The translations under genes and the position numbers were made by a program. The notes under the pieces are model-generated. The model was not told where the DNA came from. It saw nothing but the letters and a program-made list of their open reading frames with translations, and searched no databases. From the NCBI GenBank assembly GCA_028719045.1, contig JAQULD010000058.1, positions 1 to 9,875 on the forward strand: a stretch of 9,875 nt of DNA, in the 5' to 3' direction. Below are positions 2 through 9,875 of the stretch, piece after piece. This DNA is from Candidatus Omnitrophota bacterium. GTDB taxonomy: Bacteria; Omnitrophota; Koll11; Gygaellales; Profunditerraquicolaceae. Numbering within the stretch: the stretch's first letter is position 1; each line of letters starts with the position of its first letter.

Positions 2-598
2 GTAAAAGCCGCCCAGGCAAGCCTTCCTTTGTCCGCCGTAAAAAACTTAAACCTCGCTGAGATCCTGAAGATTGATTTCAAAGTTGTGGCATTGGCGGTA
101 TTGATCTGCGTGTTTACTTTTATTTATGGCCTTTACCAGAAACTGCCTTTGCAGAAAGAGATCAACAGTATTATAAACCAGAGGCCAAAAGTCGCGGGCG
201 TAAACCCCAATGCCGACTATTCCGAACTTTCAACCATAAGCTCTTCCTATAAAGACAAAATAGACGCCATCAACAATTTGATCCTTAAAGAACTCTACCT
301 GACCGGAGAACTGAATACCATACCAAGCCTTATGCCGGACGGTATGATGCTTACCAGCATGAACTTTACAAAAAGAGAAGAAGATAAATACATGGAATTT
401 ACGATTAGCGGCACGGTGACCCTCGCGGACAGCGAACAGGAATACAAAACAGTGGTCACTTTCTATACCAATCTCAAGCAGGACGCTAATTTTAAAAAGT
501 ATTTCAAGAATTTCAACCTCGTATCGGTGGAACGCACAGACTTGGGAACAGGCAGAGGGACAGCGACTAAATTCGTCATATCTTGCACCAGTCAATAA
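2..598 (+). CDS. PilN-like inner-membrane pilus assembly protein (5' partial)
   Basis: This is likely the PilN (MshI/GspL C-terminal-like) component of the inner-membrane alignment complex. It would link a cytoplasmic PilM-type protein to periplasmic PilO. The frame is open to the left edge, where it reads VKAAQASLPL before a TTG at 29. That TTG has no Shine-Dalgarno sequence, so I treat the gene as truncated; a TTG start would give 189 aa. Numbered from the TTG, residues about 18-35 form one transmembrane helix (VVALAVLICVFTFIYG). A periplasmic stretch with a helical region follows. Then comes a PilN-like alpha/beta segment around residues 98-189, with the family-typical pattern 'IPSLMPDGMMLTSMNF' and an 'FTISGTV' strand. 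The next gene starts 12 bases downstream, consistent with an operon. The assignment rests on topology and position as much as on sequence. The upstream part could be a PilM domain fused in GspL fashion. Confidence 0.72.
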   Translation, partial: VKAAQASLPLSAVKNLNLAEILKIDFKVVALAVLICVFTFIYGLYQKLPLQKEINSIINQRPKVAGVNPNADYSELSTISSSYKDKIDAINNLILKELYLTGELNTIPSLMPDGMMLTSMNFTKREEDKYMEFTISGTVTLADSEQEYKTVVTFYTNLKQDANFKKYFKNFNLVSVERTDLGTGRGTATKFVISCTSQ

Positions 599-610
599 AA
601 AGGAACCTGT

Positions 611-1138
611 ATGGACAGCATAGAACTGCTTAATAAATACAAAAATATGGTGGTAAGCGCGGTGGTGCTCCTGATCGCGTTAAGCATTTCTGTTAATATT
701 TACAAAGACCAGTCTAGAAAAACCACCGAGTTAGCCGCAAAAAAAGAGCTTGAAGCTAAAAAGAATACCACCTTGCAGGACATAAATTCTTATGAAAAAC
801 AGCTCGAGGCATATAAAGGGATTTTAAACAAAAAAGCTGTGGATTCGATAATAAATACCCTCGGCGACCTGGCCAAAGAATCTTCGGTTACCATAGAAGC
901 GGTTAAACCGCAGGAAGAAAAGCCTTACGGGACTTTTCGCATGCTCCAATTCGAAATAAACGTTTCATCTTCCAGTTACCACAATATAGCGAAATTCATA
1001 AATAAGATCGAAAGTTACCCTGATATTTTCATGATCACCTGGCTTTCATTGCATGTGGACCTGGTCCAAGAAGGAGACCAGCAGATAAACAAGCTAAAGG
1101 CCGATATGAGGTTAAATACCTTTAAAATCAGCGATTAA
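611..1138 (+). CDS. pilO: PilO-like inner-membrane pilus assembly protein
   Basis: This is likely the PilO (MshJ/GspM-like) partner of the preceding PilN-like protein in the periplasmic alignment complex. The 175-aa product has a short cytoplasmic N-terminus and one transmembrane helix at about residues 12-30 (NMVVSAVVLLIALSISVN). A charged coiled-coil region follows at about 33-72 (repeated K/E/A-rich heptads). A ferredoxin-like periplasmic domain occupies about 75-175, with the pattern 'FEINVSSSSYHNIAKFINKIESYP' (first 20 residues: 112-131), typical of PilO. The ATG at 611 is preceded by AAAAAGGAA, an acceptable ribosome binding site. The gene sits 12 bases after the PilN-like stop and 2 bases before the next start. 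Topology, size and order support the call; sequence divergence from the proteobacterial family is high. Confidence 0.78.
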   Translation: MDSIELLNKYKNMVVSAVVLLIALSISVNIYKDQSRKTTELAAKKELEAKKNTTLQDINSYEKQLEAYKGILNKKAVDSIINTLGDLAKESSVTIEAVKPQEEKPYGTFRMLQFEINVSSSSYHNIAKFINKIESYPDIFMITWLSLHVDLVQEGDQQINKLKADMRLNTFKISD

Positions 1139-1140
1139 CT

Positions 1141-1668
1141 ATGAATAAAACTGCAAATCGATTATTATTTACGGCTTGCGCCATTTTTATACTTAATCCG
1201 CCGCTTGCATTTGCGGATTCGACCTTCAAATCGATCAAAGAACTGGAAAGCCAGGAAAAATCCGTAAACGAGAAAATATCGGCTGCTGATGAGCTGCTTA
1301 AAAAGCCAAAACTCGAATATACCGCGTCTGATTTAAAAGACCCGTTTTTTCCTGAGGAAAAAAAGCCTGAAACAACGCTCCAGCCGGACACAGGCGAAAT
1401 AACCACTGAAGTAAAACCTGTGCCTGAAGGCCAGTTAGAATCGCTTTCAAATTTCACGGTTACCGGGATCATCTGGGGCGGAACGGTCGCGCAGGCGATC
1501 GTGAATGACAAAGTGGTAAAAATCGGCGATATCGTTGACGGAGCAAAAATAATCAAAATCGAAAAAAACGGCATAATAGTGTCTTACATGAACCGCCAAT
1601 ACAAACTTACTTCTCCGGCGGATAATATGATGCAGAGTATTCAAAAAGAGCCTAAAGGAGGCCAATGA
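1141..1668 (+). CDS. pilP: PilP/GspC-like periplasmic pilus assembly protein
   Basis: This is likely the periplasmic PilP (MshK-like) protein that connects the PilN-PilO inner-membrane complex to the secretin. The 175-aa product starts with a Sec signal (n-region MNKTANR, hydrophobic core LLFTACAIFIL), with likely cleavage after A25 (AFA|DS). A charged helix at 31-55 and a Pro/Glu-rich linker follow. Residues 65-71 read LKDPFFP, resembling the 'RDPF' motif common before PilP domains. Residues about 99-156 form a small beta domain (FTVTGIIWGG..AIVNDKVVKIGDIV..KIIKIEKNGI), the beta-rich HR/PilP fold. Proteobacterial PilP is a lipoprotein. The Cys at residue 13 has only a short hydrophobic run before it, so a soluble form cleaved by signal peptidase I seems more likely here. 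The stop overlaps the secretin's candidate starts (ATGATG), indicating translational coupling. Confidence 0.78.
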   Translation: MNKTANRLLFTACAIFILNPPLAFADSTFKSIKELESQEKSVNEKISAADELLKKPKLEYTASDLKDPFFPEEKKPETTLQPDTGEITTEVKPVPEGQLESLSNFTVTGIIWGGTVAQAIVNDKVVKIGDIVDGAKIIKIEKNGIIVSYMNRQYKLTSPADNMMQSIQKEPKGGQ

Positions 1669-3194
1669 TGAAAAAGAATGTCTTACTTCCTGTTTTTGTT
1701 TTTTTCGCTTTTTTCGTTTTTTTCCCCTTATGCGGCCACGCGGAACAGGAACTTCCGTTTGATAACCCTGAAATTACCATTTCCATGGATTTCCAGGACG
1801 CGAACTTAAGAGATGTCCTGAAAATATTCTCCATACAGTCCGAGCTGAATTTTATCGCCTCTGAAGCGGTACAAAACAGGAAGGTCACGCTTTTCCTGAA
1901 CAAAGTCCCGATAAAAGAGGCTATGGATAAATTATTCAAGGCCAATAATCTCGCGTATGACTTGGACAAGGAATCGCGTATTATAATCGTAAAAGACTGG
2001 GGAAAACCGCAAACAGAGACGCTCACAAAAGTTTTCTACCTTAAACACGCTGTCCTTAAATCTTCAGCGCTTGAGAATGAAAAAACGAACCAGGAGATCC
2101 CGAATTCAGATTTAACTCTTGGTTCCGGAGGCACAAGCGCCACCTCCTCAGCATCTTCAACAACGAGCACTACTTCAACTTCACAGGAAGACTCCGGAAT
2201 CACTTCCGCGGTAAAAAAGATACTTACCGCATCGGGTACTGTGATGGAGGACCCGCGTACGAACAGCCTGGTTGTAACAGATATTCCAAGCAAGATGCCT
2301 GTTATCGAACAATTGGTCTCTTCATTAGACATTTCTCAGCCGGAAATCCTGCTGGAAGTGGAAATGCTGGATGTAAGCAAAAACCTTATGGACACACTGG
2401 GTTTTGACTGGACAACGACGACTTCTTTTGCCATTCAAATCGCCACCGGTGTAAAAAAGGGCATTAACTTTCCCTTTACAAATGACAAAAACACGACTAC
2501 TTCAAGCACTTCGAATTGGTCTACGGTCTTTGATTTCATAAGGACGCAAAACGACGTAAAATCATTAGCGCGGCCGAAAGTATTGACCTTAAATAACGAA
2601 ACCGCTGAAATCAGGATCACAGCCAACGAAGCTATCGGCATAAAGACCACCCAGGCATCCACTTCCGGAGGCACCTCCGAACAAACAATAGAAGCGGAAA
2701 GGGCGCAAACCGGGGTCCAGTTAAGAATAACTCCCCAGGTAAACCCTGAAACCGGGGACATTACCATGTTTTTAATACCTTCGGTTACTGATATCGCCTC
2801 AACCAGCACATTTACCGATTCTAGCGGAAAATCCAATGTCTTCAAAAACCCGGAAACGCGAGGGACAAAATCGATAGTAAGAGTGCGTGACGGCGACACG
2901 ATTATTTTAGGCGGGCTTTTAAGGACAGAATATAGTGAAGACGATTCCAAACTGCCATTTTTCGGAGATCTCCCGATCGCCGGCGCTTTGTTCAGGCATA
3001 AAGACAAAACCAAAGACAAAGAACGCGAGTTGCTGGTTTTTATTACGCCCCACATAATGAAGGATGCCGGCAGGGAACTTGCCCAAACAAAACAGTTCCC
3101 GATCCCGGACAGGGAACAGGGGACTGTTTCAGGCGCTGAAAGATTCACCACAATCAGTTCAAGTTTGAACAATTTCGAGCCTAAAAGAAGATAA
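1668..3194 (+). CDS. pilQ: Outer-membrane secretin (PilQ/MshL/GspD family)
   Basis: This gene encodes the outer-membrane secretin channel through which the pilus or substrate would pass. The preferred start is the second ATG of ATGATG: GGAGG at 1657-1661 lies 6 bases upstream of it, against 3 for the ATG at 1665. The 508-aa product has a signal peptide cleaved after A25 (GHA|EQ). An STN domain covers about 37-110 and an N1-type domain about 118-222, containing PRTNSLVVTD at 196-205. A Ser/Thr/Gly-rich stretch at about 149-175 interrupts N1. The secretin beta-barrel domain covers about 297-463. Hallmarks are ARPKVLTLNN (301-310), GVQLRITPQV (349-358), DGDTIILGGLL (408-418) and the LPFFGDLPIAGALFR / ERELLVFITPHI signature (429-443, 452-463). 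It lacks the AMIN domains of proteobacterial PilQ and is short for the family, closer to MshL. Its TAA overlaps the ATPase ATG (TAATG). Confidence 0.95.
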   Translation: MKKNVLLPVFVFFAFFVFFPLCGHAEQELPFDNPEITISMDFQDANLRDVLKIFSIQSELNFIASEAVQNRKVTLFLNKVPIKEAMDKLFKANNLAYDLDKESRIIIVKDWGKPQTETLTKVFYLKHAVLKSSALENEKTNQEIPNSDLTLGSGGTSATSSASSTTSTTSTSQEDSGITSAVKKILTASGTVMEDPRTNSLVVTDIPSKMPVIEQLVSSLDISQPEILLEVEMLDVSKNLMDTLGFDWTTTTSFAIQIATGVKKGINFPFTNDKNTTTSSTSNWSTVFDFIRTQNDVKSLARPKVLTLNNETAEIRITANEAIGIKTTQASTSGGTSEQTIEAERAQTGVQLRITPQVNPETGDITMFLIPSVTDIASTSTFTDSSGKSNVFKNPETRGTKSIVRVRDGDTIILGGLLRTEYSEDDSKLPFFGDLPIAGALFRHKDKTKDKERELLVFITPHIMKDAGRELAQTKQFPIPDREQGTVSGAERFTTISSSLNNFEPKRR

Positions 3195-4924
3195 TGCCTA
3201 AAGAAAAATATTTACGTTTGGGCGAACTTCTGATAAAGGAAGGCCTGATCACTGAGGCGCAATTGGAAAAAGCCATCAGTTATCAAAGGGAGCACGGCAT
3301 CCGCCTGGGCGAGGTTTTCATTGAACTTGGAATGATCAAAGAAGACCAGATGGTTTCCATATTAGGAAGGCAGCTGGGAATTCCTTATTTTGCCCTTGGA
3401 ACAGGCAAATTAAAGCCCATAGCGGAACAGGAATTAGCGGACCTGGTACCTAGGGAATTCGCGATGAAAAACCTGGTATTGCCGCTCTCCAGGACTCTCC
3501 GGTCATTGACTGTGGCCATGGCCGACCCTTTAGACCTCATCCTTATTGACAATATACGCAAGCTCACCAACTGCGAAATAAACCCGGTCATAGCCACGCG
3601 TTCAGATATCAACAAAGCTATCGAAGAATTTTACGGCAAAGCGAAAATGCTCGAAGAAGCTGTGGAAGCTTCTTATGATTTAAGCCAAACCGAGGAATTC
3701 CTCTCGGAAAGTTCGGGGTCGGAAGAAGAATTAAGCCTGGATAAGCTCATTGCCCGCGCCGAAGAAGCCCCGGTGGTCAAACTTGTAGACCTGATCATCC
3801 GCCAGGCAATAGATGAAAGGGCGTCAGACATCCATATCGAGCCTTTCAAAGACAGGATATCTTTACGCTACCGCATTGACGGAAAACTATACGAGGTCCC
3901 TCCGCCGGCAAGACACCTGCATCTGCCGATCCTGTCCAGAATAAAAATCTTAAGTAAACTTGACATCGCGGAAAAACGCCTTCCCCAAGACGGGGCAATA
4001 CTGGTAAAAATAGAAAATAAGCCTATAGACCTGAGAGTTTCCACCATTCCTACAATTTACGGGGAAAAAGTCGTATTAAGAATACTGGACAGGAGCAATA
4101 TCGTGCTGGAATTGCGCCAGCTGGGATTTGATTCCAAACAGTTAGAATACATTCGCAGGGCCATAAACGCGCCTTACGGGCTTGTATTCATGACCGGGCC
4201 CACAGGAAGCGGAAAGACCACCACTCTTTACGCCATGCTGAACGAAATAAAAAGCCCGTCCAAGAACATCATTACCGTCGAGGATCCCGTAGAATACAAA
4301 TTGGACGGTGTCAACCAGGTCCAGGTCAAGCCGGAAATCGGATTGACGTTCGCTTCCGCGCTCAGAAGCTTCCTAAGGCAGGACCCCAATATATTGCTGG
4401 TCGGAGAAGTAAGAGACCTGGAAACCGCCGAGATATGCATCCGTTCAGCGCTCACAGGCCATTTAGTCCTAAGCACCCTGCATACAAATGACGCTTCTTC
4501 CGCCATAAGCCGCCTTATCGACATCGGCATTGAGCCATTTATGCTCGCTCCGTCTTTATTATTGGTGGTGGCGCAGCGTTTGATAAGAAAATTGTGCCCT
4601 GAATGCAAGGAAGCGTACGAACCGGAACCGGAACAGCTTAAGAACATCAAATTAAAAACAGACCTGATATACAAACCAAAGGGCTGTGAAAAATGCAACC
4701 ATATAGGATTTAAAGGCAGAGAGTGTATTTCCGAGGTTTTAATGATCAATGAATCAATACGCGACCTGATCAGCCAGAGGGCTCCTTTCCAAAAAATAAG
4801 GGAAGCGGCCAGGAATTTAGGCATGCAGACGCTTGCCGATTCAGCGATCAAAAAGGTGGAAGCCGGAGTCACTTCGCTTGAAGAAGCCCTGGCAATTACG
4901 CTCGGAGAAGACTATTTGTCTTAA
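3194..4924 (+). CDS. pilB: Pilus assembly / type II secretion ATPase (PilB/GspE/MshE family)
   Basis: This is the cytoplasmic hexameric ATPase that powers pilin polymerisation through the platform protein. The 576-aa length is normal for PilB. Residues 8-31 and 37-60 are two tandem MshEN motifs (RLG...G...Q pattern, 5-residue spacer), the known cyclic-di-GMP-binding arrangement. The N2 region contains the arginine-rich ASDIHIEP and RYRIDG segments. Walker A is GPTGSGKT at 335-342 (K341), followed by the Asp box (TVEDPVEY). Walker B is ILLVGEVRD at 400-408, and the His box is LSTLHTNDA. A zinc-binding tetracysteine module is complete (C468-x2-C471 and C498-x2-C501), as in PilB/GspE and unlike PilT. 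The start overlaps the secretin stop by one base, so it is translationally coupled. A GspE designation is equally possible from sequence alone. Confidence 0.96.
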   Translation: MPKEKYLRLGELLIKEGLITEAQLEKAISYQREHGIRLGEVFIELGMIKEDQMVSILGRQLGIPYFALGTGKLKPIAEQELADLVPREFAMKNLVLPLSRTLRSLTVAMADPLDLILIDNIRKLTNCEINPVIATRSDINKAIEEFYGKAKMLEEAVEASYDLSQTEEFLSESSGSEEELSLDKLIARAEEAPVVKLVDLIIRQAIDERASDIHIEPFKDRISLRYRIDGKLYEVPPPARHLHLPILSRIKILSKLDIAEKRLPQDGAILVKIENKPIDLRVSTIPTIYGEKVVLRILDRSNIVLELRQLGFDSKQLEYIRRAINAPYGLVFMTGPTGSGKTTTLYAMLNEIKSPSKNIITVEDPVEYKLDGVNQVQVKPEIGLTFASALRSFLRQDPNILLVGEVRDLETAEICIRSALTGHLVLSTLHTNDASSAISRLIDIGIEPFMLAPSLLLVVAQRLIRKLCPECKEAYEPEPEQLKNIKLKTDLIYKPKGCEKCNHIGFKGRECISEVLMINESIRDLISQRAPFQKIREAARNLGMQTLADSAIKKVEAGVTSLEEALAITLGEDYLS

Positions 4925-4943
4925 AAACCAACCTCTTTAAAAT

Positions 4944-6182
4944 ATGCCAAAATTCTTTTATATCGTCAGAGACGCCGAAGGAAAAAAGATCCAAAACTAT
5001 GAAGAAGCGGCCACGCAAGACGAACTCGTTTCCCGCTTACAGGCCAGAAATTATATAATAGTAACCCTAAGCGCCGAGACCAAGGAAAACAAAGCCGGAT
5101 TAAAACAGGAAGTCGTCGCAAAAGCCGGTTTTAAACCAAGGCATTACGGCGCAAATACGCACGACCTGGCTATGTTCTGCAGGCAGCTGGCAACACTTTT
5201 AGGAGCCGGCGTCACAATATTAAAAAGCCTGGAAATAATCTCCAAGCAGGTGTCCAGCCGTAAACTTCTGGATGTCACAAAAGAACTGCAAAAAGACATG
5301 GAATCCGGGTTAAGCCTGCACGAATCGATGGCAAAACACCCCAAGGTTTTCTCCGACCTTTGGGTAAACCTGGTGGAAAGCGGTGAAGCGAGCGGTAACC
5401 TCGCCGTAGTACTTAACCGTCTGGCAAGCTATCTTGAAAGAAGCGAAACTTTTAAAAGCAAGATCATTTCTGCGCTTATTTATCCGCTTATACTGTTCAC
5501 TGCCGGCCTCGGGGCATTGCTGTTCCTTACCCTGAAAATCATTCCCGTGTTTGCCGATCTGTTCAAAGGTTTTAACGTTAAATTGCCCGCTCTTACCCAA
5601 ATGCTGGTAAATCTCAGCCATGTGATCAGAAGCACTTTCGTACTCATAATCGCAGTACTAATAGGAGGTTTTTTCGCGCTAAGGCAATTTATCCGGACAA
5701 AAAACGGCCGCCTGCAATTCGAAAGATTTTTATTCTCACTGCCGGTATTCGGAGATTTTTTCCGCGCGTTGATCGTGGAAAGGTTTTCTTCGGAAATGTC
5801 CACCCTTATAGAAAGCGGCGTTCCTATCCTGTATTCCCTGGAAATAACCGAACAAAGCGTGAACAATATGATCGTAGCCAACATAATCCGCGAAGTAAAA
5901 GAAGAGGTGCGTTCCGGAAAAACCCTGAGCCAGCCTTTGGATAGAAGCGGATTTTTCGAACCGATGGTCATCCAAATGATCACAATCGGGGAAGAAATCG
6001 GTGAGTTGTCTCAGATGTTCAAAAAAATTAATTCCTTCTACCAGGAAGTAATAGAAACTTTCCTGACCCGGTTTACTTCAATGTTTGAACCGATAATGCT
6101 CTTATTTATCGGCTCAGTCATAGGAATAATGGTTGTTGGATTGTTTCTGCCTATTTTCCAGATCGCCCAGATCGGCGGATAA
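4944..6182 (+). CDS. pilC: Inner-membrane platform protein (PilC/GspF family)
   Basis: This polytopic inner-membrane platform receives the ATPase rotation and scoops pilins into the growing fibre. The 412-aa product has the usual two-repeat architecture. An N-terminal cytoplasmic region (1-70) begins with a FFYIVRDAEGKKI strand pair. The first T2SSF domain covers about 73-196, with FCRQLATLLGAGV at 78-90 and LVESGEASGNL at 143-153. The second covers about 276-398, with FSSEMSTLIESGVPIL at 281-296 and MITIGEEIGEL at 345-355. Transmembrane helices lie at about 173-200, 230-248 and 380-403. It follows the ATPase by 19 bases. No Shine-Dalgarno sequence is visible before the ATG (the upstream bases read CCAACCTCTTT), so it may depend on read-through translation or an unusual initiation. 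It is the last gene before the regulated pilin leader. Confidence 0.95.
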   Translation: MPKFFYIVRDAEGKKIQNYEEAATQDELVSRLQARNYIIVTLSAETKENKAGLKQEVVAKAGFKPRHYGANTHDLAMFCRQLATLLGAGVTILKSLEIISKQVSSRKLLDVTKELQKDMESGLSLHESMAKHPKVFSDLWVNLVESGEASGNLAVVLNRLASYLERSETFKSKIISALIYPLILFTAGLGALLFLTLKIIPVFADLFKGFNVKLPALTQMLVNLSHVIRSTFVLIIAVLIGGFFALRQFIRTKNGRLQFERFLFSLPVFGDFFRALIVERFSSEMSTLIESGVPILYSLEITEQSVNNMIVANIIREVKEEVRSGKTLSQPLDRSGFFEPMVIQMITIGEEIGELSQMFKKINSFYQEVIETFLTRFTSMFEPIMLLFIGSVIGIMVVGLFLPIFQIAQIGG

Positions 6183-6208
6183 ATCAAGCAAATTTCTTCA
6201 TAAAATTA

Positions 6209-6236
6209 TTGACAAAGCTTCAAATTTTGTTAATAT
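6209..6236 (+). promoter_or_regulatory. Sigma-70-type promoter for the pilin gene
   Basis: A perfect -35 hexamer TTGACA (6209-6214) is followed after 16 bases by TAATAT (6231-6236), which matches the TATAAT consensus at four of six positions. The surroundings are AT-rich. The predicted transcription start is about 6243-6245, giving an untranslated leader of roughly 83 bases before the pilin ATG. The position directly after the platform gene and before the major pilin fits the known need for excess pilin. It is a sequence prediction only; no sigma-54 -24/-12 pair (as used by many pilA genes) was seen. Confidence 0.62.
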
Positions 6237-6269
6237 TAATTCTATGAGAGGAGGTGAAAATCCTATAGT

Positions 6270-6304
6270 TTTTTAGAAAAACATTTTAAGCAATTTTCTA
6301 AAAA
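6270..6304 (+). repeat. 11-bp inverted repeat in pilin 5' leader
   Basis: The arms TTTTTAGAAAA (6270-6280) and TTTTCTAAAAA (6294-6304) are perfectly complementary across a 13-base loop. In RNA this would form an A/U-rich hairpin between the orphan AGGAGGTGA and the real pilin ribosome binding site. It lacks a GC-rich stem and a following T-run, so it is a poor intrinsic terminator. It might act as a protein operator or as an mRNA stability element. Confidence 0.6.
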
Positions 6305-6326
6305 TATATCTATTAAGGAGGAAGAC

Positions 6327-6731
6327 ATGAAAAAAGGTTTTACGTTATTGGAATTAATCATAGTAGTCATTATCTTAGGTGTTTTGGCGACATTAGGCTT
6401 TACCCAGTATGTTAAAGTTGTGGAAAAAGGAAGAACCGCGGAAGCAAAGGCTATTTTAGGCGATATTCGCACCGCAGAGAACGCGTATTATCTCGAATAT
6501 GCCACTTATACAACTCTGCCTAACCTGCCTGTAGGCGCTCCTGCAGTAGCACCAGCTTGCACAGCAACTACACATTATTTTGGATATAATATCGTGGCTG
6601 CAGCCGGCACGTTTACCGCTACAGCGACAAGATGCACTTCCGGAGGCAAAACTCCTAACTTTACCGGAGCCGCGTACGCAGTAACTTTAGACCAAGGTGG
6701 CAACTGGAGCGGTACTGCTGGTTATTTTTAA
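6327..6731 (+). CDS. Type IV pilin / major pseudopilin (likely main pilus subunit)
   Basis: This is the likely major pilin. The 134-aa precursor begins MKKG|FTLLELIIVVIILGVLA, a canonical class III signal. Gly4 is at -1, Phe5 at +1 and Glu9 at +5, so a 4-residue leader would be cut and the new N-terminus methylated by a prepilin peptidase. The hydrophobic alpha1 helix covers about 5-27. The segment RTAENAYYLEYATYTTLPNL (48-67) is the conserved 'AE.Y..E...Y' region of this pilin type. The globular domain contains two cysteines, C78 and C103, probably a disulfide, and a Gly/Trp/Tyr-rich C-terminus. A strong AAGGAGG ribosome binding site (6315-6321) sits 5 bases before the ATG, and a promoter lies upstream, both fitting high expression. 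It has no transmembrane segment beyond the N-terminal helix. Confidence 0.93.
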   Translation: MKKGFTLLELIIVVIILGVLATLGFTQYVKVVEKGRTAEAKAILGDIRTAENAYYLEYATYTTLPNLPVGAPAVAPACTATTHYFGYNIVAAAGTFTATATRCTSGGKTPNFTGAAYAVTLDQGGNWSGTAGYF

Positions 6732-6784
6732 TAGTTAGCGTTACCTGAAGTTAACCAAGCATCTTTTAAGAGAGAACCTTAAAA

Positions 6785-7198
6785 ATGAAAAACAAAGCAT
6801 TTACGCTAATGGAACTTATCATTGTCATACTCATCATAGGTGTAATTGCTGCTATCGGTTTTTCGAATTACGCTAGATCAAGAGAGAATACCCTGGACAA
6901 GGAAGCCTTCGCTAATTTAAGGCTTATCCAAGCGGCTGAGAATGTTTACAGATTTGAAAGCGGAGCTGTTTATCCCAGGACACTGGCTAATGAATCCAAT
7001 ATAGCGAATATTAACCAGTTCTTGAAACTTTCTCTGCCTACTGCAGGCAGATGGAATTACAGAGTTTCAGGGCAAACTTCGCCAAATCCGGGTTGCGCTC
7101 AGGCAACGAGGAACGGAGATAACGGGCGTGCATTTGTCATGACACTCGCCAATACCGGCGACCCGCAGGCATCTCCGCCAGCAGGCGCTTGTCCATAA
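6785..7198 (+). CDS. Second type IV pilin / pseudopilin, paralogue of the preceding pilin
   Basis: The 137-aa precursor begins MKNKA|FTLMELIIVILIIGVIAAIGF and keeps Glu10 at +5, but has Ala5 rather than Gly at -1 of the cleavage site. It resembles the first pilin in the helix and in the segment IQAAENVYRFESGAVYPRTL (48-67; compare RTAENAYYLEYATY in the first pilin), so the two look like tandem paralogues. The C-terminal region differs. It contains NPGCAQATRNGDNGRAF with C104 and ends GACP with C136, a plausible terminal disulfide loop. The gene lies 53 bases downstream of the first pilin. A weak AAGAGAGAA precedes the ATG. It could be a second major subunit or a minor pilin; the sequence does not decide. 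Its stop codon lies at the very edge of the inverted-repeat element that follows. Confidence 0.92.
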   Translation: MKNKAFTLMELIIVILIIGVIAAIGFSNYARSRENTLDKEAFANLRLIQAAENVYRFESGAVYPRTLANESNIANINQFLKLSLPTAGRWNYRVSGQTSPNPGCAQATRNGDNGRAFVMTLANTGDPQASPPAGACP

Positions 7199-7278
7199 AA
7201 ATTAGGGACACTTTTTTAGTTATGCTAAAATCAGTTAAAACTGAAAGACGCGAATTAAAAGAGTGTCCCTTAATTTTA
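7197..7278. repeat. MITE/REP-like inverted-repeat element within the pilin cluster
   Basis: Two arms of about 21-22 bases, at 7198-7218 and 7256-7277, are complementary with a single bulged base and one G-T wobble. They include GGGACACT on the left and AGTGTCCC on the right. The pairing extends inwards by about three more pairs. A second small hairpin sits inside (TCAGTT 7231-7236 with AACTGA 7239-7244), so the whole folds into a branched cruciform or long hairpin. It begins within the stop codon of the pilin gene and ends 3 bases before the next ATG, filling the entire spacer. There is no transposase here. The structure fits a non-autonomous mobile repeat (MITE or REP-type); a transcript-processing or attenuating hairpin is the alternative. 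Confidence 0.6.
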
Positions 7279-7280
7279 CT

Positions 7281-7643
7281 ATGAATAAAAAAGCCCAAAC
7301 GCTGATGGAGGTTTTGACTGCCTCTATTTTATTGCTTCTGGTAAGCTACGGATTAGCCGGGCTTTTTCTTGCCAGCCACAGGCATATTATACGCAGCCAT
7401 TTCAGGTTAGCCGCCGCTGAAATGGGAAAAGTATATCTGGATCCTTTACAAATGGACGTCCGCCAGGATATTGTTGCCAACCCCGCCGCGGCATCCTGTT
7501 TAAAATCCGGAGTCGGTTGCCCTTTAGCGCAGACGCTGGATAACGTGGCATACACTAACACATATGTCCGCTCGCTTTTACCTCTTTCTGACGGACAGAA
7601 TGTTACCAAAGTAATACTGACCGTCGTTTGGGCTGAGAGATAA
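7281..7643 (+). CDS. PilV/GspI-like minor pilin
   Basis: This is a likely minor pilin that would help initiate or prime the fibre. With the ATG at 7281 the product is 120 aa with the short class III leader MNKKA|QTLMEVLTASILLLLVSYGLAGLF. Ala5 is at -1, Gln6 at +1 and Glu10 at +5. The 'TLMEVLTASILLL' helix and the total length match the GspI/PilV group, as does the C-terminal strand VTKVILTVVWAER (108-120). Cysteines C73 and C80 could form a small disulfide loop. An upstream GTG at 7263 would add MSLNFT but lies inside the inverted-repeat arm and gives an atypical leader, so ATG 7281 is preferred. Neither start has a visible Shine-Dalgarno sequence, perhaps because the repeat element displaced it. 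The next gene starts 2 bases after the stop. Confidence 0.8.
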   Translation: MNKKAQTLMEVLTASILLLLVSYGLAGLFLASHRHIIRSHFRLAAAEMGKVYLDPLQMDVRQDIVANPAAASCLKSGVGCPLAQTLDNVAYTNTYVRSLLPLSDGQNVTKVILTVVWAER

Positions 7644-7645
7644 AT

Positions 7646-8254
7646 ATGATACCGGGAATTTTAAGAAAAAAAAACGCGCTTACGCTTATCGAGTTACTGG
7701 TTTCTTTATGTATCATCGGTTTTTTGATCATTGCCATGGCCAATATCGATATATTCAGCCGCCACCATGTGATGTCCAGCGACAAAAAAACCAAAGTACA
7801 GAACTCCCTGGCTTATTCTTTAGAACATATGACTAAAGAAGTTTCCAGGACTATCGGCAATGAGTTCATAAGCGGGGCCGATAGCGTAGCGAATACGGGA
7901 ACGATTGCGGGAGCTCCAGCCCTGCGGGTTTTTGTGGATTTTAATAATAACGGGGTATCGGATGCCGGAGACGGATGGATCGCCTACCGCCTCCAGGGGA
8001 ACTTATTGCAATTCTGTTCGTTCTGCCCGACTGCGGCGTGCAATACCTGCCTATCGTGGACAACTATAAGCAACAGGATAGTGAGTTTTGTCCCTTCAAA
8101 ACCGGCAACTCTTTTTTTGTCAAAAGACTCTTTAGATGTTTCAATCACGGCCTGCTATGATCCGGCGCAAACTATCTTTCCTTGCGGCACCTCAGACAAT
8201 CCCCGGGAGGTAATGCAAAGCACTTTAAGGATGCCTTTAGTCTCCGTAAATTGA
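7646..8254 (+). CDS. PilW/GspJ-like minor pilin
   Basis: The 202-aa product has a class III prepilin signal, RKKNA|LTLIELLVSLCIIGFLIIAM. Ala11 is at -1, Leu12 at +1 and Glu16 at +5, after a slightly longer 11-residue leader. Size, a long helix followed by SLAYSLEHMTKEVSRTIG (54-71), and its place after a PilV/GspI-like gene support a PilW/GspJ-type minor pilin of the tip complex. Unusual features of the globular part are a D98-F-N-N-N102-G-V-S-D106 stretch resembling an EF-hand-like calcium loop, and two closely spaced CxxC pairs (C124/C127 and C132/C135), plus C170 and C180. Spacing to the preceding stop is 2 bases, and GAGAGA upstream is only a weak ribosome site. It is the last gene of the pilin cluster. 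Confidence 0.82.
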   Translation: MIPGILRKKNALTLIELLVSLCIIGFLIIAMANIDIFSRHHVMSSDKKTKVQNSLAYSLEHMTKEVSRTIGNEFISGADSVANTGTIAGAPALRVFVDFNNNGVSDAGDGWIAYRLQGNLLQFCSFCPTAACNTCLSWTTISNRIVSFVPSKPATLFLSKDSLDVSITACYDPAQTIFPCGTSDNPREVMQSTLRMPLVSVN

Positions 8255-8360: not shown

Positions 8361-8436
8361 GGGGCGATAGTTCAGTTGGGAGAACGCTACATTCGCATTG
8401 TAGAGGTCGCGGGTTCAACTCCCGCTCGCTCCACCA
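8361..8436 (+). tRNA. tRNA-Ala, anticodon CGC
   Basis: A complete 76-base cloverleaf with encoded CCA. The acceptor stem is GGGGCGA with TCGCTCC, including the G3-U70 wobble pair that is the classical alanine identity element. The D stem is GTTC/GAAC. The anticodon stem is CTACA/TGTAG around the loop TTCGCAT, placing anticodon CGC at 8394-8396 (reads GCG, alanine). The T stem is GCGGG/CCCGC with loop TTCAACT, followed by A73 and CCA (8434-8436). Every stem pairs, and the G3-U70 pair agrees with the anticodon. The radical SAM gene begins only 36 bases downstream. Confidence 0.97.
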
Positions 8437-8439
8437 AAA

Positions 8440-8466
8440 TTTTCCCGATAAGGAATAGCGGGAGAA
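8440..8466 (+). promoter_or_regulatory. Hairpin overlapping the amrS ribosome binding site
   Basis: TTTTCCCG (8440-8447) can pair with CGGGAGAA (8459-8466), including one G-U pair, across an 11-base loop. The right arm contains GGGAGA, the best Shine-Dalgarno match for the amrS ATG at 8473. If it forms, the hairpin would occlude ribosome entry. Its position right after the tRNA CCA end could also make it a processing or pausing structure. It is a prediction by eye only. Confidence 0.4.
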
Positions 8467-8472
8467 TTAGCA

Positions 8473-9576
8473 ATGAAAAATCAATTGAAACTTGGTTTTT
8501 GCCTGGTAATTTTCTTCCTTCTGCTTGGCGTTTCGATTTATACCCCAACCCTTGTAGCAAACACACCGTTAAAAGAAGCTCTTTTTTATGAGAAACTGGC
8601 TAACAATAAGGTTCAATGCCACCTCTGCCCCAGAAACTGCGTAATTGCCGCAGGAAAACGGGGTTTTTGCGGCACGAGGGAAAACCGCCAGGGAGTATTG
8701 TACACTTTATCCTATGCCAAGCCGGTTTCCCTGCACGCCGATCCAATCGAAAAAAAACCGTTATTCCATTTTCTGCCGGGAAAAATGGCATTTTCCATTG
8801 CTACGGCAGGCTGCAATTTACGTTGTAAGTTCTGCCAGAACTGGGAAATTTCGCAAAAATTGCCTGAAGACGTGAATTTTGTCTATCTTGAGCCCGCGGA
8901 CCTGGTGAAAAAAGTGAAGGAAGAAGGCTACGGCGTCATTGCTTATACTTATACCGAACCCACTATTTTTTATGAATATATGCTGGACACCGCGAAATTA
9001 GCCAGAAAGAACGGCATAAAGAATGTCATGCACTCCTGCGGTTATATAAATGAAGCGCCGCTAAGGCAGCTCGTCAAATTTATTGATGCCGCTAATATTG
9101 ACCTGAAAGGTTTCACTAACGATTATTATTCCGAGATGTCCCAGGCGACCCTGGAACCGGTATTAAAAACCTTAAAAATCCTGAAAAAATCCGGAGTCCA
9201 CCTGGAAATAACCAATCTGGTTTTACCGGGATATAATGACGACCCCGCCACAATAACTAAAATGTGCTCGTGGATCAAAGAAAACCTGGGAGCGGATGTG
9301 GCCCTGCATTTTTCGCGTTTCCAGCCGATGTATAAACTCCTGGCGCTTAATCCCACACCGGTCCAGACCCTGGAAAAAGCAAGGCAAATCGCCCTTAACT
9401 GCGGCTTAAAATATGTCTACATAGGAAATGTCCCCGGAAACGCCGCCGAAAGCACCTTTTGCCCAAAATGCGCAAAGCTGCTGGTGGAACGAAGAGGTTA
9501 CTTTGTAATCCAGAATAATATCGAAAACGGGAAATGCAAATTTTGCGGAGAAAAAATTGATGGCGTCTGGGATTAA
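8473..9576 (+). CDS. amrS: AmmeMemoRadiSam system radical SAM enzyme with N-terminal signal/anchor
   Basis: This belongs to the AmrS family of radical SAM enzymes that occur with MEMO and AMMECR1 domain proteins; their reaction is not established to my knowledge. The 367-aa product has CxxxCxxC at C114, C118, C121 (GCNLRCKFCQNW), the ligands of the SAM-cleaving 4Fe-4S cluster. Family signatures are VQCHLCPRNC (47-56), DPIEKKPLFHFLPG (90-103), AYTYTEPTIFYEY (157-169) and DLKGF (210-214). A C-terminal cysteine set (C330/C333, C355/C358) probably binds metal. The conserved family region starts near residue 34 (KEALFYEKL). The first 30 residues are an extra segment, MKNQLK plus LGFCLVIFFLLLGVSI and then TLVAN, resembling a Sec signal or membrane anchor. 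There is no ATG/GTG/TTG near residue 33, so the extension is not a start-site error. GGGAGA lies 8 bases upstream. It overlaps the MEMO gene by 17 bases. Confidence 0.93.
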   Translation: MKNQLKLGFCLVIFFLLLGVSIYTPTLVANTPLKEALFYEKLANNKVQCHLCPRNCVIAAGKRGFCGTRENRQGVLYTLSYAKPVSLHADPIEKKPLFHFLPGKMAFSIATAGCNLRCKFCQNWEISQKLPEDVNFVYLEPADLVKKVKEEGYGVIAYTYTEPTIFYEYMLDTAKLARKNGIKNVMHSCGYINEAPLRQLVKFIDAANIDLKGFTNDYYSEMSQATLEPVLKTLKILKKSGVHLEITNLVLPGYNDDPATITKMCSWIKENLGADVALHFSRFQPMYKLLALNPTPVQTLEKARQIALNCGLKYVYIGNVPGNAAESTFCPKCAKLLVERRGYFVIQNNIENGKCKFCGEKIDGVWD

Positions 9577-9875
9577 GAACAAAATACCGGTTTTAATATT
9601 TATCATTTGCGTTTTAGCGTCATTAATGCCCGCCGCTTTATACGCCCAGGACATAAAAGAGCCTAACGTAGCCGGGGGGTTCTATCCGGCAAACCAGCAG
9701 GAATTATCCGGATTGGTAGACAGCTTTCTTTACGCGGCAAAGCCGGAGTCTGTAAACGGTGAGATCTTCGCGCTGATATCCCCGCACGCGGGCTATCCGT
9801 TCTCCGGTAAAACGGCGGCCTACGGTTACAAACTTATTAAAGGCCTTCCTTACAAGACCGTGGTTGTTATCGGGC
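9560..9875 (+). CDS. amrB: MEMO-family protein (AmrB) with signal peptide, 3' partial
   Basis: The gene runs off the right edge; 105 codons are visible. It is the MEMO partner of the radical SAM enzyme; MEMO proteins resemble class III extradiol dioxygenases and bind metal. The ATG at 9560 lies inside the 3' end of amrS, and GGAGA at 9547-9551 lies 8 bases upstream, so the pair is translationally coupled. The N-terminus (MASGIKNK, then IPVLIFIICVLASLMPAAL) is a Sec signal peptide, with likely cleavage after A29 (LYA|QD). The mature part has the family hallmarks VAGGFYP (37-43) and SPHAGYPFSG (74-83), where H76 matches a conserved metal-ligand histidine of MEMO proteins. The assignment to MEMO is firm. 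The completeness of the active site and any fused AMMECR1 domain cannot be judged from this window. Confidence 0.92.
   Translation, partial: MASGIKNKIPVLIFIICVLASLMPAALYAQDIKEPNVAGGFYPANQQELSGLVDSFLYAAKPESVNGEIFALISPHAGYPFSGKTAAYGYKLIKGLPYKTVVVIG

Follow-up and report, generated by a model that had tools for sequence, protein, structure and literature searches.

Many bacteria appear to keep a second AmmeMemoRadiSam copy outside the cytoplasmic membrane. We put the probability that this copy is an envelope version of the system, with its own SAM handling and electron supply, at roughly 0.6. The reading is built from sequence comparisons starting from one window, by which we mean the whole 9,875-nt stretch of contig JAQULD010000058.1 from a Candidatus Omnitrophota bacterium. 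A separate signal-bearing AmrS lineage would act at the cytoplasmic membrane or beyond it, together with a MEMO-AMMECR1 fusion that would be exported too, and a cytosolic AmrS would remain in most of the same genomes. In bacteria with Tat, mostly, the folded Fe-S AmrS would be exported by that route. TatC-less lineages, such as the window's nearest relatives, would use a Sec-type signal, often paired with a DsbD_2/CcdA-like membrane electron carrier that may keep the 11 AmrS cysteines reduced and/or supply electrons. An MFS-like/spermidine-synthase-like membrane protein, predicted to face outward, would bring or present SAM, and the radical chemistry would act outside on an envelope substrate.

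The AmrS-MEMO-AMMECR1 system includes relatives of human MEMO1 and AMMECR1. Radical SAM enzymes depend on SAM, low-potential electrons and oxygen-sensitive clusters and are for that reason regarded as cytosolic; we know of none that acts beyond the cytoplasm. The literature searched, which covered few subscription papers, yielded no account of an exported AmrS or a periplasmic radical SAM enzyme. MEMO systems are the subject of Burroughs et al. 2019, as cited in PMC7159879. A signal-bearing clade beside a cytosolic copy in many phyla, together with near-perfect partner co-occurrence, offers a handle on where and how this branch works and predicts a SAM-handling membrane protein. In its fullest form, set out below, the reading would amount to the first case known to us of radical SAM chemistry outside the cytoplasm, and SAM would have a path through the membrane.

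Predicted export signals in the window and its relatives

The window encodes a radical SAM enzyme of the AmmeMemoRadiSam system. AmrS (367 aa) scores 377.5 bits against TIGR04337 in a profile search (cut-off 220), which places it in the family. A score of 85.8 bits against PF04055, a match to the radical SAM fold and the CxxxCxxC motif place it in the superfamily. The closest named relatives of the window are Omnitrophota, and the nearest AmrS is that of locus L001 (76%). The amrS and MEMO genes overlap by 17 nt; MEMO starts at ATG 9560, preceded by a TTG at 9557.

Table 1. Features of the window and the basis of each assignment.
Feature	Position	Strand	Basis or remark
PilN, PilO, PilP-like, secretin, T2SSE, T2SSF and prepilin-like genes	2-8254		assigned to type IV pilus or type II secretion; precede tRNA-Ala and amrS
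tRNA-Ala	8361-8436		upstream of amrS
Likely ribosome-binding site of amrS, GGGAG	8460-8464	+	by inspection
amrS, radical SAM enzyme of AmmeMemoRadiSam system, exported-clade paralogue	8473-9576 (stop included; coding 8473-9573)	+	TIGR04337, tree
Predicted Sec-type signal of AmrS (residues 1-29), either cleaved or retained as an anchor	8473-8559	+	hydropathy, charge
N-terminal cysteine set C49, C52, C56, C66	8617-8670	+	100% conserved in Sec, Tat, signal-less and cytosolic groups
Radical SAM motif CxxxCxxC (C114, C118, C121)	8812-8835	+	as conserved as in cytosolic paralogues
C-terminal cysteine set C330, C333, C355, C358	9460-9546	+	90 to 100% conserved in all four groups
MEMO gene, cut by window end	9560-9875	+	TIGR04336, 63.3 bits (cut-off 26)
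Predicted Sec signal peptide of MEMO, residues 1-29	9560-9646	+	hydropathy rule

AmrS and MEMO both begin with Sec-type segments, as the first-pass annotation had claimed and as hydropathy, charge and inspection confirm. The AmrS N-terminus reads MKNQLK, LGFCLVIFFLLLGVSIY, TPTLVA^NTPLKEALFYEKL; its basic n-region, hydrophobic core and cleavage site are recognized by rules and inspection, cleavage being predicted. The core exceeds 15 residues and sits before the family start KEALFYEKL. Net charge is +2 ahead of the core and 0 across the 15 residues behind it, inspection places a plausible signal peptidase I site after A29, and the AF2 model has a helix at residues 2-23. MEMO begins MASGIKNKIPVLIFIICVLASLMPAALYA^QDIKEPNVAGGFYP: basic residues come first, the hydrophobic core again exceeds 15 residues, and signal peptidase could plausibly cut behind it. 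Signal assignments throughout are based on hydropathy, charge and motif rules plus inspection. A twin-arginine motif was searched for in both window proteins and is absent from both, and neither is classed as Tat-type. The earlier statement that such a motif is missing holds for these two proteins but not family-wide, since most exported relatives in other phyla are Tat-type. The AmrS of Desulfobacca acetoxidans (P0130), for example, belongs to the Tat type.

The AmrS segment is shared by close homologues. When the 120 best homologues of the window AmrS in the database are compared, 116 have a hydrophobic N-terminus and the other four are N-terminally short. It is hardly credible that misplaced start sites or metagenome assembly created the signals: the window is a fragment, which speaks for such an error, but the segment recurs in these homologues, twin-arginine motifs occur in 118 of 120 members of a distant homologue group, and, as noted in the first pass, no start codon removes the AmrS core. 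Only codon 1 (ATG) and codon 5 (TTG) could serve as starts within the first 50 codons, and the TTG, unmentioned in the first pass, leaves the core intact. Among the 108 homologues with an extension of normal length, charge is more positive before the core in 99 and less positive in 2. This bias favors the pattern of an inward N-terminus and an outward body, and we consider AmrS export likely. A lipoprotein reading of the AmrS helix may apply to relatives: a Cys lies within residues 13-26 in 94 of 108 close homologues, and the window has Ser21 there.

MEMO beside exported AmrS is usually fused to AMMECR1. In close relatives the MEMO gene continues as a MEMO-AMMECR1 fusion of ~500 aa (PF01875 plus PF01871 in L001); AMMECR1 is seen only there, as a fusion, because the window ends inside MEMO. 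The partners that define AmmeMemoRadiSam are found as an adjacent MEMO in the window and as AMMECR1 in relatives. The MEMO part of L001 retains PHAGY, PSH and CG, which we take to be the metal-ligand motifs of human MEMO1. Sec or lipoprotein-like signals occur in 64 of 68 fusions, and the AMMECR1 with a matching signal that the first pass had suggested looking for is present in relatives. Among stand-alone MEMO proteins, 33 of 41 have no signal, and some of the eight that do, the window's included, are fusions cut by a contig end. Signals also co-occur in the same genomes, a point that the first pass had suggested checking: signal-bearing MEMO is found among the fetched sequences in 39 of 45 genomes with signal-bearing AmrS. 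The six genomes for which none was fetched (G001, G004, G008, G010, G025, G041) count against the envelope reading. In three Nitrospirota loci (L048, L050, L061), AmrS is signal-less and the fusion is lipoprotein-like.

The adjacent pilus locus, which the first pass thought made an envelope substrate imaginable, reflects synteny confined to close Omnitrophota relatives. There, amrS has prepilin-like genes beside it in L001, L002, L006, L009 and 10 to 12 Omnitrophota Sec-type loci. They are not recurrent neighbours elsewhere, and a general pilus link was rejected.

The signal-bearing AmrS clade and its predicted export route

Signal-bearing AmrS proteins belong to a clade of their own, beside a cytosolic paralogue. 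Species genomes were scanned with the patterns CKFCQNW and IFYEYML, and the AmrS N-termini of the best 80 loci fall into Sec-like, twin-arginine and signal-less groups. TIGR04337 is found in 50/50 genomes profiled from these loci, at least twice in most. After further copies were fetched, 139 distinct AmrS were classified. In a FastTree tree, a branch whose local support is 97% separates 90 of them from the rest; we call this group of 90 the exported clade, and the window AmrS lies inside it. After curation its rows comprise 54 Tat-type, 24 Sec-type and 12 signal-less sequences, two of the 12 being truncated. All 49 rows outside the clade were called signal-less, with a typical start MKEALLYEKL just before the first cysteines. 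Both kinds of AmrS coexist in 45 of the 50 genomes, and 45 of 50 likewise have a Tat or Sec signal on a copy from the exported clade. Signal-less clade members (12/90; 25/108 in the Omnitrophota set below) count against the envelope reading. Calls changed by eye in this first set were L001 (Tat to Sec) and L019, L021, one L025 copy, L065, L067 and L069 (to Tat). The classification omits L155 and L180 (no anchor), the tree-aware test and the cysteine comparison omit the truncated L168 and L076, and the cysteine comparison and neighbour counts omit L194.

The predicted AmrS signal type follows the export machinery of the host. Genuine export signals would confine Tat-type AmrS to genomes with TatC, which is absent from 17 of the 80 genomes of the first set. 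Curated counts per genome, with and without TatC, are 46/0 for Tat, 7/16 for Sec and 10/1 for none (automatic calls: 41/1, 9/15 and 13/1), and 16 of the 17 TatC-less genomes have Sec-type AmrS. An Omnitrophota set of 193 genomes and 108 exported-clade rows, which shares seven genomes and three rows with the first, gives curated row counts of 11/58 for Sec, 14/0 for Tat and 25/0 for none; that is, 58 of 69 Sec rows and 0 of 39 others lie in TatC-less genomes. The raw counts are 11/54 for Sec, 11/4 for Tat, 3/0 for Tat-like and 25/1 for none. Four calls (L271, L283, L359, L259) were moved from Tat to Sec by eye, and all four are in TatC-less genomes, so that their re-call favors the rule; L318 was kept as Tat and looks Sec-like, and L266 (no anchor) and L347 (broken frame) were left out. 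Sec-type AmrS also occurs with TatC (7/23 in the first set, 11/69 in Omnitrophota), which counts against the envelope reading. Tree-aware tests yield two well-supported independent pairs in the first set and four in Omnitrophota, none against the rule and none significant; with so few pairs, the counts are prone to over-counting. The tatC gene itself lies within ~3 kb of an exported-clade AmrS gene in G015:C29, G016:C46, G107:C27, G146:C44 and G251:C15. The first-pass suggestion of an extracytoplasmic or membrane-tethered system gains support from the signal-bearing clade, the partner signals and a predicted route that follows TatC.

Most signal-less AmrS in Omnitrophota look like two separate parts, one a membrane piece and the other the body. 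All 25 such rows kept in the Omnitrophota set come from genomes with TatC. At 17 of these loci (L305, L307, L312, L316, L320-L323, L325, L327, L330, L334, L337, L339-L341, L343), and also in L058 and L078, a small ORF terminates right at the start of AmrS or a short way upstream of it; such an ORF was looked for at all 25, and none was found in eight. Its tail, like LxPxxAKYW, resembles the KEALFYEKL segment of intact AmrS. The ORF has a membrane helix in 16 of the 17 (L330 has none in the ORF as called), and charges favor an outward tail in 13 of 18 and the opposite in 3. A programmed frameshift was rejected, as the upstream ORFs end in differing frames relative to AmrS and a constant shift is therefore absent. 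Also rejected was the idea that the split body hitch-hikes through Tat on a neighbour with a Tat signal, a strict motif giving a candidate in 1 of 25 loci.

How the two halves would meet and how the body would exit are hard to account for, and this is the best argument for a cytosolic AmrS body. The N-terminal helix might serve only as a tether, with the body acting from the cytosol on a membrane substrate or on MEMO-AMMECR1 before its export. SAM (and ferredoxin) would be available there, signal-less or split members keep the membrane partner described below at 20 of 25 loci, and polyferredoxin-type proteins lie beside 16 of 25 signal-less loci. We nevertheless consider a mere tether unlikely, given that 54 of 90 exported-clade rows carry a canonical twin-arginine signal, that Tat-type AmrS was found only with TatC, that in 99 of 108 close homologues the charge bias places the body outside, and that MEMO-AMMECR1 bears an export signal.

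Membrane partner and putative electron carriers

The envelope reading needs SAM outside, and a membrane protein with an MFS-like part and a spermidine-synthase-like soluble domain is a candidate for its supply. It occurs in 109 of 111 Omnitrophota genomes with exported-clade AmrS versus 13 of 82 without, and in a second phylum in 44 of 45 versus 5 of 73, with cut-offs set after the lists had been inspected (1e-60 for the partner in both phyla; 1e-105 in the second-phylum count). These genome-wide counts rest mostly on genomes other than those used to pick the family. Among the 50 matches listed for this protein, 6m20 is the only MFS chain. The soluble domain is placed between two membrane halves and flanked by helices 186-201 and 517-532, which have a pLDDT of roughly 53 to 76. 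It is predicted to face outward; with flanking helices of such low confidence, this placement rests on hydropathy and charge, and the low confidence counts against the envelope reading. The catalytic Asp is kept in 6 of 97 partner sequences as read from alignment columns (a fixed-pattern motif search matched few of the 97). The spermidine-synthase fold suggests handling of SAM-like molecules.

Putative electron carriers recur beside exported AmrS. Within 4 kb of AmrS, we compared 88 exported-clade rows (L168 and L194 left out) with 49 cytosolic rows and found DsbD_2 in 15 versus 0, polyferredoxin-type proteins in 10 versus 0, DUF362 in 19 versus 0, MEMO/AMMECR1 in 35 versus 2 and the spermidine-synthase-like membrane protein in 35 versus 3; p-values for these counts are biased towards a difference because the families were picked for recurrence at the same exported AmrS loci. 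DsbD_2 adjoins 15 of 24 Sec-type and 0 of 54 Tat-type rows. In Omnitrophota (98 of 108 rows; loci under 4.5 kb left out) it lies beside 40/59 Sec, 4/14 Tat and 0/25 signal-less loci, and polyferredoxin-type proteins lie beside 7/59, 3/14 and 16/25, respectively. Rows in these neighbour counts are not phylogenetically independent.

The DsbD_2 (PF13386) neighbours keep a CxxxC motif and a PC cysteine in 13 of 13 cases, presumably the positions used by CcdA and DsbD. In the close relatives L001-L007 and L009 the gene follows MEMO-AMMECR1 and is therefore expected, behind an AMMECR1 domain, just past the window end; gene order downstream of it is also conserved in these loci, with genes that we take to resemble RsmE and MtaB. 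Fer4_5 and FMN_bind proteins are found at other exported AmrS loci. A domain scan of the 10 polyferredoxin-type neighbours, which left out L061 and L011, identified the one at L048 as ETF-alpha with Fer4 domains and no membrane carrier. At L022:1744-3432, a single protein directly upstream of exported AmrS combines DsbD_2, FMN_bind and Fer4_5. A DUF362 protein lies just upstream of many Tat-type amrS genes (L032, L036, L038, L044, L046, L052, L054 and others), and its N-terminus is twin-arginine-like in L038 and L043.

Exported AmrS might instead carry out no radical SAM chemistry and, together with MEMO-AMMECR1, transfer electrons through Fe-S clusters or handle metals outside. We find this quite improbable: the common electron-carrier neighbours would suit it and the envelope reading has to posit an outside SAM source, yet CxxxCxxC and most invariant residues are conserved in exported AmrS equally to its cytosolic paralogues, and the fold of the membrane partner suggests the handling of SAM-like molecules. 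In its fullest form, the envelope reading would be a complete extracytoplasmic radical SAM machine with exported AmrS and MEMO-AMMECR1, an MFS-like SAM carrier or presenter, electron carriers and, in Tat-less bacteria, Fe-S assembly after Sec export. We advance this full version tentatively, as somewhat short of an even chance.

Comparison with known systems

Sequence and partners identify the system as AmmeMemoRadiSam (NCBIfam TIGR04335, TIGR04336, TIGR04337). It departs from the known form in its predicted export signals, separate AmrS clade, MEMO-AMMECR1 fusion and membrane partners. The two share homologues of AmrS, MEMO and AMMECR1 over the curated cut-offs and the adjacency of AmrS and MEMO; here, 45 of 50 genomes contain the exported version next to a cytosolic AmrS. 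Pyruvate formate-lyase activating enzyme (3cb8), which is cytosolic, has no signal and lacks the additional cysteine regions that AmrS has towards both termini, beyond the aligned 78-317.

The putative carriers resemble DsbD/CcdA thiol-electron carriers and NapH/NosR-type polyferredoxins in the DsbD_2 cysteines and in the Fer4_5 and FMN_bind proteins at the loci. Known carriers of these types serve cytochrome c, disulfide or nitrogen-oxide pathways, and we know of none that serves a radical SAM enzyme. The membrane partner shares with fused MFS/spermidine synthase (NF037959) a transporter-like membrane part and a spermidine-synthase fold. It differs in scoring below the cut-off (24.2 bits against 40), in the placement of its soluble domain between the membrane halves and in a catalytic Asp that is mostly absent.
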